In this document: piece after piece, positions 44,344-48,462 of the stretch | Layout of the letters: the number at the start of each line of letters is the position of its first letter | Numbering within the stretch: the stretch's first letter is position 1 | NCBI GenBank assembly: GCA_022827625.1 | Contig: JAJEIE010000033.1 | Span: 62,001 to 126,000 of the forward strand | Origin: Candidatus Poribacteria bacterium | Lineage (GTDB): Bacteria; Poribacteria; WGA-4E; WGA-3G | Length of the DNA stretch: 64,000 bases | Reading direction: 5' to 3' | Notes under the pieces: model-generated | The model's database searches: none | Seen by the model: the letters and a program-made list of their open reading frames with translations, nothing else | What the model was told of the DNA's origin: nothing | Made by a program: the position numbers and the translations under genes

Positions 44344-47300
44344 GTGAGAAAAAGCCACCCCGATCTGCCTACCTATCACCAACATCAATGTCCCAACAAG
44401 AGGCGCGTAGGTACAGGAAACGCTGCCTCGCGGTTCGCGGTTCGCGGTTCGCGGTTCGCGGTTCGCTATCTGCTGCGTATTTTTGTCGTCGCCTCTCTCT
44501 TTTGTCTACTACAACCGGTACTTATCGCTCAAGATGCTCCACCACAGGAGCAGACACCACAGGAGCCACCGACCGAAGAAACACAGCCACCCGATGCGAC
44601 AGATGACGCGCCTACTGACGCAGAACAGACACCTAATACCCCAGATGAAACACCTACTGATGGGGAACAACCTCCTGATGCCACAGATGACACGGAAGCG
44701 GAAGACGAAACGCCCTCTGAACGTTTGAATCCAGAAACCGATGTTCCGGAAGAAGGTATGGTGATTGGGGACGGCGAGAGTGTGTCAATGGTGGATAATT
44801 TTGTTCAAATTCACGGCGATGCCCTCGTCAAATTTGAAGATGTCATCTTGCGTGCGGATCATGTCTGGGCTGACTTTGATGAAAATCTGGTGCGTGCCTC
44901 TGGAAACGTTCACCTTAAAGTCGGAGACGAAGAGACCTATTCCGATGAACTCGTCTTCAACCTTGAAACCAAAAAGGGAATCGCCAGAGATGGATTTACC
45001 TATAGCGACCCTTGGTATTTTGGCGGTAGCGAAATCTTTAAAATAGAGGAAGATAAATCGTATGTCCGTGGCGCGACCTTGACGACCTGTTCACTGGAGC
45101 ACCCCCACTACTATTTCAGTGTCTCTGAGGTAATTGTCCGCATGAATCAGGAACTGATTGCCAAGAACATCGTCCTACGCATTGGTGGATTTCCGTTATT
45201 CTATTTTCCAGCCATTCGTCGCGACCTACGCAAAGGGAAAGTCGCCAAGATTATCGTCAAAGTCGGAACCGATAGTTACCAGGGCCCTTACCTCAGCATT
45301 ATCCAGCCACTTGTTCGTAAAAGACGCTACGATGCCGCACTGCTTTATGACAGAAGCGCGCGGCGAGGGCAAGGTTACGGGTTTGAGGGAAAGTATCGTT
45401 TTCGTGATACAAAGTATAAAGAGATACATATCCCTATTCCGGAGGATGCAACACCAAACCAACGCACCAAATTGGAAGAGAAGGCGAACGAGTTACAAGA
45501 GCGACTTGATGGTGAATATGATCGTTATTGGCTGAGGCAGCTATTCCTTGAATATAAGATTACAGCTGAGGATATCGCCCGCGCGAAAGAGCGTGCCGAG
45601 GAGGTCCGAACGCAGGCTTTAGAAGAAGGCACAGATTTCGCCCAACTCGCACAAAGCAACTCTGACCACTCTGACACCCGTTATGAGGGCGGCGATATAG
45701 GGTTCCTCGTTCCCGGCGAAACGGATGAAGATGGGAATCCAAAACTCGATCCTGCTCTGGAGGCAGCTGCCTTTGCACTACAAGAAGGCGAAGTGAGTCC
45801 GGTTATACAGACGGAAGCGGCTTTTCATATTTTTAAAGCCGATCGCGTGATTGACGTTTACGGCGAGCGCGAAGTCAGGCTCCGCCGCATCGACATCAAT
45901 ATCACCGCAAGTGATGACACCGAGGCGATGCTCCGAGAATTGGCTGACGACCTGCTACAACGCGCCCAGGAGGGTGAAACCTTTGAGGCACTTTTGCAGC
46001 GCGCCGATGTCCTCTCTGATTATGTTCAAGCAACGCTTTCCGAGATTAATGAAGGCAACGGGATGCTGCTAAATGAGATGGACACCTCTTGGCAATACTC
46101 CGTTAGGCGTATGGAAAACCCCGGTGACGTTACCGAGCGTCGTCCTGTTTCTACACCAGAAGGATTTTACATCTTCCAATTAATTGAAAAAGAGGAGACA
46201 CCCACTTTTGAGGCACTTGCTGAGGAATTCGAGACGGAATGGGAGACTTTTTACGAAGGTGTTATGAATCCAACACCAGAGGGCAGCGAGGCAGACACCG
46301 GTACGCCAGAATCTGAAGGATCAGATGTAGAAGGAACAGATGTGCCGCCTACAACTTCAGAACAGACGGAGGCGGTCGAAACCACCGATACAGCAGAAGA
46401 AACCGAAGAGACCGAAGCAACTGAACCGGAAGCCTCCCAAGAAATTGAGCCGGAAGAAGAAAGTCAAGATGCCCAGGTAATCGAACCTGAAAGCGACCAA
46501 GAAATCGCGCCGCAAGAGGAAAATCAAGACACCGAAGTCATCGAACCTGAAGAGGCACCAGAGGATACGACACAGGACGAAGCTGTAGCCGCCTCAGACG
46601 AAGAAACGGAAGAAGAGGACACGGAAGAAGGGGTCTACAGACAACACGACTTTCGCGGCAGATGGGAAGATCCAAGCCCTGTCGCCTCAGAAGCACAGAG
46701 TTTGTATGCCGGTGAACATAGTAGACGCCCAATTAGAACACAGAAATCCTTCCGGCTTATCAAAGTTGATAGAAAGCGGGCATATCGAGGAGACATCTAC
46801 TTCTATGGCGCGGACCGCTACTCTTATGAACGGCAGAACGCCACTCGGATTGGTAGAAGTTGGATTATGCGATGGGCACATACCCAATCGTTCTTTACGC
46901 CGTGGGACAGTCGAGAAGCCGGTAGACGGCCTATCAGTTTTAACGGGAGGACAGAGTTACGCGCCCTGAATTATAAAGAGGATTTGCAACTCCCGGGTGA
47001 ATCGACGCTCAACTCTTTCGGAATTCTCACTTACGGTACGGCTTTCTCCGCTTTCAGTGGAGAAGATATTGATGAAAACGGCAACCTCAGGTTCTCACGA
47101 GAAACGATCGGGGACTTCACAGGTAGAGTTGAGGTCCGCCACATTCACGATTTCACGGGTGAAGGCACGAGCTCATTGCAAAAACTTCCACAACTCACTT
47201 TGAACTTTTCACGAATGCGGGTCAGTTCTTTTCCACTCTTTGAAACCCTCAACGACGGGATGGTGTCCGTTGCCGAGAAATTCAAAACGGAAACACCGTT

Positions 47301-48462
47301 TCTCTCAATGTTTACAATTCCAACGCTCGAAAGTACCAGTCTCGATTTGGATGTTGAACTTGGAAACTTCTTTAGAGAGGTTTTTCGTGGCAAAGGCACT
47401 GAGGAACGGGATGTGTACCTCCAGACAATGGATTTCGGATTTGATGTCCGCAAACAATCGACGCTCCAGATTACACCGCTGCGTGAACTCCAGATGAGTC
47501 TCTATCTTAACACAAACGCGATTTGGCACGACCGGGATCAAAACCAAAATAGGAACATTGTACGCGGTGTTTACAGTATCAATGCAACCGCTACGAATAC
47601 ACTCTTCCGTATCTTCGATGTCAGTTATATCCCGGGACTGCGGAAATTGCGCCACGAAATGCAGTCCTCGCTTCGCTTTGATTATCAACCGCCTGTTGAT
47701 ACGGATGATAGTCTTTATCCATTCGGACCCAGCACCTACTTCTTTGAACGGAAGCGGCTCACTTATAACTTCAATACCGGCGTTGAGATTAAAACCCGAC
47801 GCAGCCAGTCAGCGCATCGAGTCTTGTATTTTGATACTCGGCTGACTGCTGATTTCACTGACTTTGACCCGTTATACCAACGCAAGTATGAACCCATTGA
47901 AAGTGACTTTACATTTACACCACTCCCAAGTCGCAATCTAAATGTTACCGTTCGATTTACGCATGACCCAAACCCACATCCGGTTGATGAAAAAACCTTT
48001 AAAATGGTAGGCTTCCGTACGAATATTCGCTATACGCGACAGACCTGGAATGTGAGTGTTGGAAGTTCTTTTAGTAAGCGACACACTTCGAGGCAAGCAA
48101 ACCGCTCAATCACGGCTACTGGACGCTACCGTTTAGGTCGCAACCTTGAATTTGATGTCAGCCTCATCTACTATCCGATTGAGCGACAGTTTTATTCTCA
48201 GCGCGTTACGATGACTCGGAATCTTCACGATTGGAACCTCCGCATCTCATGGAACCGGATTGGTATCAAGCGAGCCGACTCGGTCTACAACAACGTCCGA
48301 CAAGATTTCACATTCCAAGTCAGTCTGATTCAGGAGCCAGCGATTTCAATGGGTGTCGGGTATGATGCCACTACTGAAACCTGGGGGATCCGCACCGTAC
48401 CTGCAGGCATGCCTTACAACGCATTCGGTAGCGGCAGCTCACTCGGTAGGTCGTATTTCTAA
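44344..48462 (+). CDS. lptD: LptD (LPS-assembly protein) with inserted rotamase domains and acidic linker
   Basis: A 1372-residue outer-membrane LPS-assembly protein (E. coli about 784). Order: signal-like stretch (about 40-62, LLRIFVVASLFCLLQPVLIA), Pro/Glu/Thr-rich linker (63-130), OstA/LptA jellyroll (about 140-340; VSMVDNFVQIHGDALVKFED, GATLTTCSLEHPHYYF, IGGFPLFYFPAI), parvulin-like domain 1 (about 410-500; DFAQLAQSNSDHSDTRYEGG, FHIFKADRV), a second degenerate rotamase-like part (about 512-632), an acidic low-complexity linker (641-766), then the beta-barrel (766-1372) ending in aromatic F. GTG 44344 is the only plausible start. Only one cysteine remains in the mature part, so the disulfide pairs of E. 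coli LptD are absent. The Pro/Glu-rich parts are unusual. Confidence 0.88.
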   Translation: MRKSHPDLPTYHQHQCPNKRRVGTGNAASRFAVRGSRFAVRYLLRIFVVASLFCLLQPVLIAQDAPPQEQTPQEPPTEETQPPDATDDAPTDAEQTPNTPDETPTDGEQPPDATDDTEAEDETPSERLNPETDVPEEGMVIGDGESVSMVDNFVQIHGDALVKFEDVILRADHVWADFDENLVRASGNVHLKVGDEETYSDELVFNLETKKGIARDGFTYSDPWYFGGSEIFKIEEDKSYVRGATLTTCSLEHPHYYFSVSEVIVRMNQELIAKNIVLRIGGFPLFYFPAIRRDLRKGKVAKIIVKVGTDSYQGPYLSIIQPLVRKRRYDAALLYDRSARRGQGYGFEGKYRFRDTKYKEIHIPIPEDATPNQRTKLEEKANELQERLDGEYDRYWLRQLFLEYKITAEDIARAKERAEEVRTQALEEGTDFAQLAQSNSDHSDTRYEGGDIGFLVPGETDEDGNPKLDPALEAAAFALQEGEVSPVIQTEAAFHIFKADRVIDVYGEREVRLRRIDINITASDDTEAMLRELADDLLQRAQEGETFEALLQRADVLSDYVQATLSEINEGNGMLLNEMDTSWQYSVRRMENPGDVTERRPVSTPEGFYIFQLIEKEETPTFEALAEEFETEWETFYEGVMNPTPEGSEADTGTPESEGSDVEGTDVPPTTSEQTEAVETTDTAEETEETEATEPEASQEIEPEEESQDAQVIEPESDQEIAPQEENQDTEVIEPEEAPEDTTQDEAVAASDEETEEEDTEEGVYRQHDFRGRWEDPSPVASEAQSLYAGEHSRRPIRTQKSFRLIKVDRKRAYRGDIYFYGADRYSYERQNATRIGRSWIMRWAHTQSFFTPWDSREAGRRPISFNGRTELRALNYKEDLQLPGESTLNSFGILTYGTAFSAFSGEDIDENGNLRFSRETIGDFTGRVEVRHIHDFTGEGTSSLQKLPQLTLNFSRMRVSSFPLFETLNDGMVSVAEKFKTETPFLSMFTIPTLESTSLDLDVELGNFFREVFRGKGTEERDVYLQTMDFGFDVRKQSTLQITPLRELQMSLYLNTNAIWHDRDQNQNRNIVRGVYSINATATNTLFRIFDVSYIPGLRKLRHEMQSSLRFDYQPPVDTDDSLYPFGPSTYFFERKRLTYNFNTGVEIKTRRSQSAHRVLYFDTRLTADFTDFDPLYQRKYEPIESDFTFTPLPSRNLNVTVRFTHDPNPHPVDEKTFKMVGFRTNIRYTRQTWNVSVGSSFSKRHTSRQANRSITATGRYRLGRNLEFDVSLIYYPIERQFYSQRVTMTRNLHDWNLRISWNRIGIKRADSVYNNVRQDFTFQVSLIQEPAISMGVGYDATTETWGIRTVPAGMPYNAFGSGSSLGRSYF
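44430..44464 (+). repeat. Five tandem copies of heptanucleotide GCGGTTC inside lptD
   Basis: Five perfect copies of a seven-base unit lie in the signal-peptide coding part of lptD, giving the peptide words RFAVRGSRFAVR. Because seven is not a multiple of three, gain or loss of one or two units shifts the reading frame; three units preserve it. Confidence 0.9.

Follow-up and report, generated by a model that had tools for sequence, protein, structure and literature searches.

LptD and its domains

An open reading frame (ORF) of 1372 codons occupies positions 44344-48462 of the forward strand in the window, a stretch of 64,000 nucleotides from a Candidatus Poribacteria bacterium (assembly GCA_022827625.1, contig JAJEIE010000033.1, positions 62,001 to 126,000). 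It starts with GTG, contains no internal stop and, as the initial annotation, made from the letters alone, had noted, ends in a terminal Phe. This ORF is the only LptD of its genome, a predicted barrel for the insertion of lipopolysaccharide (LPS), into which a module of parvulin domains has been inserted. LptD is an essential LPS insertase and, in E. coli, a classic client of SurA. Along the ORF we distinguish the following parts.

44344..48462, + strand: lptD with inserted parvulin module, 1372 aa (ORF; Pfam Rotamase and weak LptD_2 matches; LptD fold; phylum-wide conservation)
44344..44529, + strand: long N-region and putative signal peptide, residues 1-62 (sequence; signal peptide judged by eye)
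44530..44763, + strand: acidic, proline-rich low-complexity N-terminal stretch, residues 63-140 (sequence)
44764..45252, + strand: LptA/OstA-type jellyroll with LTTC...PHYYF segment, residues 141-303 (hhalign; structural alignment)
45253..45411, + strand: barrel strands 1-4, residues 304-356 (secondary structure of the AlphaFold2 model; hhalign to Alteromonas LptD)
45412..45519, + strand: first half of the outer parvulin, β1-α1, residues 357-392, prolonging barrel strand 4 (splice test on homologues with shuffled control; AlphaFold2)
45520..45864, + strand: nested parvulin P1, residues 393-507 (Pfam Rotamase; SurA profile)
45865..46197, + strand: nested parvulin P2, degenerate, residues 508-618 (SurA profile; alignment to the SurA tandem; structural match to 8hm4)
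46198..46266, + strand: α2 of the outer parvulin, residues 619-641 (family alignment; AlphaFold2 helix)
46267..46635, + strand: acidic disordered linker, residues 642-764 (cross-family comparison; low model confidence; 60-bp DNA repeat)
46636..46779, + strand: last part of the outer parvulin, residues 765-812, its final strand passing into barrel strand 5 (alignment; AlphaFold2; splice test)
46780..48459, + strand: barrel strands 5-26 and C-terminal tail ending in Phe, residues 813-1372 (AlphaFold2 strands; LptD structural alignment)

Identification as LptD

The homology to LptD that the initial annotation had claimed was confirmed at the level of structure and of profiles. An AlphaFold2 (AF2) model of residues 173-1372, built with 43 sequences and numbered differently from the protein, had a predicted local distance difference test (pLDDT) score of 74.3 and a predicted template modelling (pTM) score of 0.56. 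Its best Foldseek matches are LptD structures (9rpr, E-value 3.1e-15), and VIA aligned it with E. coli LptD (9ia5) at a Z of 17.7 over 597 residues with a root mean square deviation of 6.2, pairing the first modelled residue onward with E. coli LptD 86 onward, in the jellyroll. The jellyroll aligned with E. coli LptD by hhalign as well (E-value 1.6e-5, covering E. coli 70-229); the profile comparison with the E. coli and Alteromonas proteins spans the jellyroll and the TTC motif, and with Alteromonas LptD it also reaches barrel strands 1-4, through the strand-4 motif EFRYL. A second AF2 model, built for a deep-branching member that is 30% identical to the protein of the window, matched LptD at a Z of 18.4. 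The barrel of the AF2 model consists of 26 strands and a short tail hairpin, and counts from both ends agree.

Among Pfam profiles, LptD_2 (PF19838) was borderline, with 22.6 bits in the genome search (cut-off 22.5) and 19.0 bits on the protein alone, matching 13 of the 43 family members with a best E-value of 4.3e-9, and LptD_N reached only 11.7 bits on the window LptD, below its cut-off. The ORF is the sole LptD_2 match in the 5.02-Mb genome. Matches to the CT351 family outer membrane protein/LptD_2 entries (NCBIfam NF052235, Pfam PF19838) are weak and confined to parts of the jellyroll and the barrel, the parvulin insert being covered by neither.

With proteobacterial LptD (E. coli b0054, PDB 9ia5/4rhb) the protein has in common the order of jellyroll and 26-strand barrel, the LTTC and related motifs, a single copy per genome, and a genome that encodes LpxC, LptF, LptG, an LptA-like protein and LptE. 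Since all five are encoded, an LPS export route is to be expected in this organism, judging from gene content, and an organism without LPS is ruled out by LpxC, LptF and LptG. Unlike E. coli LptD, in which turn T2 is a few residues long, the window's protein holds about 450 extra residues there; it has no Cys pair in turn T12, and the structural-alignment identity is about 13%.

The LptE of the window's genome was missed by PF04390 and recovered by a profile built from Poribacteria (E-value 2.6e-52). A role of the insert as a substitute for LptE is ruled out, as LptE was found across the phylum and, with this profile, in the window's genome. In three families, Poribacteria LptE genes (L149, L152, L153) immediately follow a pnp-like gene, corresponding to the C-terminal part of polynucleotide phosphorylase.

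Position of the insert in the barrel

In the AF2 model, strands β1 (304-310), β2 (314-325), β3 (329-338) and β4 (342-364) precede the insert and β5 (802-826) follows it, so the order given in the initial annotation, with the inserted domains wholly ahead of the barrel, needs correction. In E. coli LptD, Y247-W249 lie on β2C and the β24-β25 turn T12 is periplasmic (PMC4353691); a check of the E. coli sequence gave 247 and 724 as the first positions of YYW and of the Cys pair. In the window, the pair FYSQRVTMTRN-LHD-WNLRISWNR, which by eye corresponds to the Cys-pair turn of E. coli LptD, falls at β24-β25 when counted from the N-terminus, and the strand count is thereby consistent from both ends. 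VIA pairs model residue 643, on β5, with E. coli LptD 285. As the strand numbering matches the E. coli naming and four strands precede the insert, the insert is assigned to the β4-β5 turn T2, which strand count and E. coli topology predict to be periplasmic, the side that had been foreseen for this module. A location in an extracellular loop, at the cell surface, is ruled out by the E. coli strand naming (PMC4353691) together with E. coli numbering.

Parvulin domains of the insert

Pfam Rotamase (PF00639) matches residues 407-500 with an E-value of 2.9e-24 (86.3 bits; cut-off 21.7), well clear of chance. Against a profile made exclusively of SurA domains, P1 scored 68.9 bits and P2 34.4 bits, with matches of Rotamase_3 to two stretches as further support. 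The family profile aligns co-linearly with both SurA parvulin domains (1m5y, E-value 4.1e-16), and the P1-P2 region (model 220-447) matches the tandem peptidyl-prolyl isomerase (PPIase) 8hm4 of Bacteroides (Z 16.6). Residues 410-632, from which the initial annotation had predicted a parvulin fold, do give one, in P1 and in a second domain at 508-618, and the SurA-like module that it saw built into LptD is present as a tandem. Of its two rotamase-like stretches the fold was right and the number was not, for there are three domains and the outer, split one had been overlooked.

The first strand and helix of this outer domain, KYKEIHIPIPEDATPNQRTKLEEKANELQERLDGE in the window, stand directly after barrel strand 4; the remainder, from TPTFEALA... 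to ...SFRLIKVDRKR, follows P2 and passes into barrel strand 5. Splicing and shuffling were carried out on homologues that do not have the long linker. When the two halves were joined, Rotamase scores rose from 41.2 to 55.6 bits (L045), from 53.0 to 64.1 (L059) and from 57.2 to 76.6 (L043) and profile coverage extended to the profile start, with the reversed order scoring 45.6. With the SurA-only profile, none of 200 shuffles of the first half reached the joined score in L043, L044, L045 or L059; the control was weaker in family f5, where 2 to 17 of 200 shuffles did so. In the second model the elements of the domain are a strand at 206-215, helices at 222-240 and 473-480, and strands at 491-496 and 525-549, with a pLDDT of about 85-90. 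The first and last strands of the parvulin fold are adjacent in its sheet, which means that such a domain can grow from a β hairpin. It is thus well supported that the insert comprises three parvulins, a split outer domain with a complete P1 and P2 nested in its α1-α2 loop.

The P1-P2 pair is co-linear with the tandem parvulins of SurA (E. coli, PDB 1m5y; Bacteroides PPIase 8hm4). Unlike SurA, the insert is without the N and C core domains (Pfam found no SurA_N match in the window LptD protein), has a third, split parvulin, carries no catalytic set and belongs to the chain of its own presumed client.

The catalytic set was judged by alignment of the insert domains to E. coli SurA P2. A complete His-Asp/Cys-His (H-D-H) set was found in no T2 insert domain (P1, P2 or outer) of any member examined: the first catalytic His of P1 is replaced by Gln, Arg or Glu wherever the position aligned, the second catalytic His of P2 is gone in most members, and the outer parvulin misses at least one residue of the set in all members examined. 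From these residues, PPIase activity of the insert appears unlikely.

In the two deepest families, f9 and f10, a fourth parvulin was detected in T5 (β10-β11), another periplasmic turn of LptD:

L059:1-3795, fourth parvulin, T5 region
L058:1-2334, fourth parvulin, T5 region

Its elements run from α2 to the last strand, followed by the first strand and α1. With the usual order restored, Rotamase_3 reached full coverage at 71.5 bits, up from 62.3; the domain is therefore apparently circularly permuted. It was modelled at low confidence (pLDDT mostly 33-57).

Distribution in the Poribacteria

The survey of related genomes suggested by the initial annotation found the fusion throughout the phylum. 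A match was obtained in 83 of 85 Poribacteria genomes, one of them (G027) weak, which leaves LptD with the insert in 82 of 85; all 56 genomes with at least 90% completeness and at most 5% contamination have a match. The carriers cover ten families, single-contig chromosomes included, and the junctions are conserved. A pattern scan of the named genome collection returned 63 loci, the group being Candidatus Poribacteria; no fusion was found outside Poribacteria in that one scan, the patterns of which are too specific to test other phyla. Our literature search, with many subscription papers beyond its reach, met no description of an LptD-parvulin fusion.

In families f2-f8 without f5, identity of P1 to the window is 44-55%, near that of the barrel (37-57%). 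In f5 it is 37% for P1 and 35% for the barrel, and the copies of both P1 and P2 are degenerate.

The acidic linker

Of the 123 residues in the window's linker, 49 are Asp or Glu and none is Lys or Arg. The linker had been placed between the parvulins and the barrel; instead it lies inside the outer parvulin domain. The internal repeats noticed in it are real and appear in the coding DNA with a 60-bp period. Linker length differs strongly by family, with 10-11 residues in f5-f10, 35-61 in f2-f3, 59-74 in f4 and 64-127 in f1, and identity between close relatives is 43%. With a pLDDT below 50 in the AF2 model, the linker is a disordered segment, expanded in particular lineages from a 10-residue loop in the outer parvulin. 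The architecture does not require it, and the acidic linker is ruled out as a defining functional part of the fusion, since it is absent from f5-f10 and, in one f3 member, balances 16 acidic by 16 basic residues to no net charge.

Another repeat in the same gene, a perfect 7-bp tandem repeat (TCGCGGT x5.6) at 44428-44466, lies inside the region encoding the signal peptide. Its unit is not divisible by three, so that a change in copy number would shift the frame. The repeat is present at three sites in the window's genome and was absent from the further lptD ORFs inspected in this genus; it is species-specific.

SurA and the neighbouring genes

Upstream of lptD the following genes were identified.

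43032..44336, + strand: surA, SurA_N and two parvulin domains, 434 aa (Pfam)
41907..42923, + strand: parvulin (Rotamase_2) protein, 338 aa, with lipoprotein-like N-terminus (Pfam)
40787..41764, + strand: parvulin (Rotamase_2) protein, 325 aa (Pfam)

The gene order is mfd-parvulin-parvulin-surA-lptD, with four parvulin proteins in the cluster. The adjacency of surA and lptD pointed out by the initial annotation is correct, surA (SurA_N and two Rotamase domains) standing directly upstream. The two genes adjoin in most families; in the f6 member checked they do not. Directly downstream of lptD, at 48541-49222, lies a pair resembling a toxin-antitoxin system, with a Gp49-like (HigB-type) toxin and an HTH_37 antitoxin-like protein. 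Elsewhere, a plasmid of Alteromonas macleodii (L130, NZ_OX359244.1 56568-61569) bears a cluster of chromosomal type with lptD, surA, pdxA, rsmA and apaG.

Family f5 departs from this arrangement. In all five f5 loci with a visible upstream region, the surA beside lptD encodes the N and C domains only:

L042:6865-7539, core-only SurA beside lptD
L046:5973-6677, core-only SurA beside lptD
L048:3349-4428, core-only SurA beside lptD
L049:6192-7241, core-only SurA beside lptD
L050:6181-6858, core-only SurA beside lptD

In the four that were aligned, both parvulins are cleanly missing, and Pfam detects SurA_N and no rotamase. No tandem-parvulin SurA was found among the other f5 SurA_N proteins inspected, which are PpiD-like, partial or without detectable parvulins. 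Upstream of surA-lptD, f5 has a single ORF of 648-739 aa with two Rotamase_2 domains. The LptD of f5 retains its own parvulins despite the core-only SurA, a pattern that fits a division of labour between SurA and LptD.

The f5 protein has the form of the laboratory core-only E. coli SurA with both parvulins deleted (Behrens et al. 2001, as cited in PMC9820271 and PMC11366764). Unlike that deletion, made in a cell with ordinary LptD, the f5 form is natural and the parvulins are carried on LptD. E. coli LptD needs SurA, and E. coli SurA without its parvulins still acts as a chaperone in vivo, P1 and P2 contributing to the binding of some clients and to docking at BAM (PMC9820271, PMC11366764). 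Contact of P2 with BAM was reported (PMC9820271), and the role of the SurA parvulin domains has been termed elusive (PMC11366764).

Possible functions of the insert

The initial annotation had inferred a cis-chaperone or a docking site, which is partly supported. We tentatively favour a reading in which the insert may be a non-catalytic peptide-binding module of SurA type that acts in cis on the assembly of LptD itself. It would bind extended, aromatic-rich segments, as SurA parvulins do with their outer membrane protein (OMP) clients, and would do so on its own LptD chain. The late-folding N-terminal strands and the jellyroll could thereby be held near BAM and the SurA core during insertion of the C-terminal strands, and the parvulin module would need no recruitment in trans. 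In f5, the two halves of SurA function would be divided between neighbouring gene products.

Several points weigh against this interpretation. Outside f5, a full SurA accompanies the insert in the families for which surA was seen, so that the insert is not a simple replacement. The insert also varies, as the degenerate P1 and P2 of f5 illustrate, and the confidence of the model is moderate by the scores given above. In a domain tree of 112 columns and 72 rows, support is moderate (90/90) for placing P1 near its counterpart in SurA of the deepest lineages, no grouping joins P2 to SurA P2, and the outer domain is unplaced; given this moderate support and the ungrouped P2, a derivation of the insert by duplication from surA is plausible by sequence comparison, not proven. 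Finally, a module that folds before closure of the barrel could equally be a scaffold.

Such a scaffold would lie beneath strands 4-5 as a rigid base in the periplasm and position the jellyroll with respect to the lateral gate and to LptA. It would do the job of the two disulfides to T12 in E. coli, and would do it in the finished transporter rather than in folding. T2 lies near the β1-β26 seam, the outer domain is continuous with strands 4 and 5, the catalytic residues are lost, no Cys pair stands at the T12 position and the LTTC cysteine is Ser in f5, all of which would suit it. We nonetheless hold this doubtful, since P1 and P2 are closer to the SurA tandem than a scaffold needs and hang from a loop of the outer domain, which is less likely for a rigid base; in addition, many LptDs outside Proteobacteria probably have neither the Cys pair nor such an insert.

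A wider version of the cis-binding module appears rather unlikely, namely that SurA function has been split, with parvulins copied from surA (up to four, all in periplasmic turns) permanently housed on LptD and the SurA core in trans, in f5 a SurA already devoid of parvulins, LptD aiding its own assembly and perhaps that of other barrels at BAM. Somewhat less likely still is a docking platform in trans, a chaperone hub that would recruit BAM, the SurA core, LptE or the two neighbouring parvulin proteins, or would hold other OMPs. The four parvulin proteins of the mfd-parvulin-parvulin-surA-lptD cluster, the f5 SurA without parvulins and the reported contact of SurA P2 with BAM (PMC9820271) speak for it; action on LptD's own chain would be the more parsimonious assumption.

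We consider it improbable that the insertion is neutral or ratchet-like and only keeps the turn closed. P2 and the f5 copies are degenerate and the linker varies freely, both between close relatives and in its length of 10 to 127 residues, as this would predict; against it, the insert is kept phylum-wide with P1 conserved about like the barrel, and its never being lost argues against free removability. An active cis-acting prolyl isomerase, serving LptD or LPS-export proteins, would agree with membership in the Pfam parvulin family and is very improbable, because the catalytic set is incomplete, the first His of P1 being absent wherever aligned and no T2 domain having the full H-D-H; a binding module remains. 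The adjacency of surA and lptD could have produced an assembly chimera of the two, a source of error that the initial annotation had named and that is practically eliminated by the recurrence of this architecture in 82 of 85 independent genomes from ten families, with single-contig chromosomes and conserved junctions.

What the Poribacteria LptD offers is a natural domain-swap that separates the chaperone core, parvulin binding and prolyl isomerisation. The phylum has fused parvulins into the client at a defined periplasmic turn, with the catalytic set lost, and one lineage has removed them from SurA. A periplasmic turn of LptD can accommodate about 450 inserted residues, and the question of cis versus trans action is addressable with constructs of one gene. 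The family thus provides a natural handle on what the poorly understood parvulin domains of SurA do.

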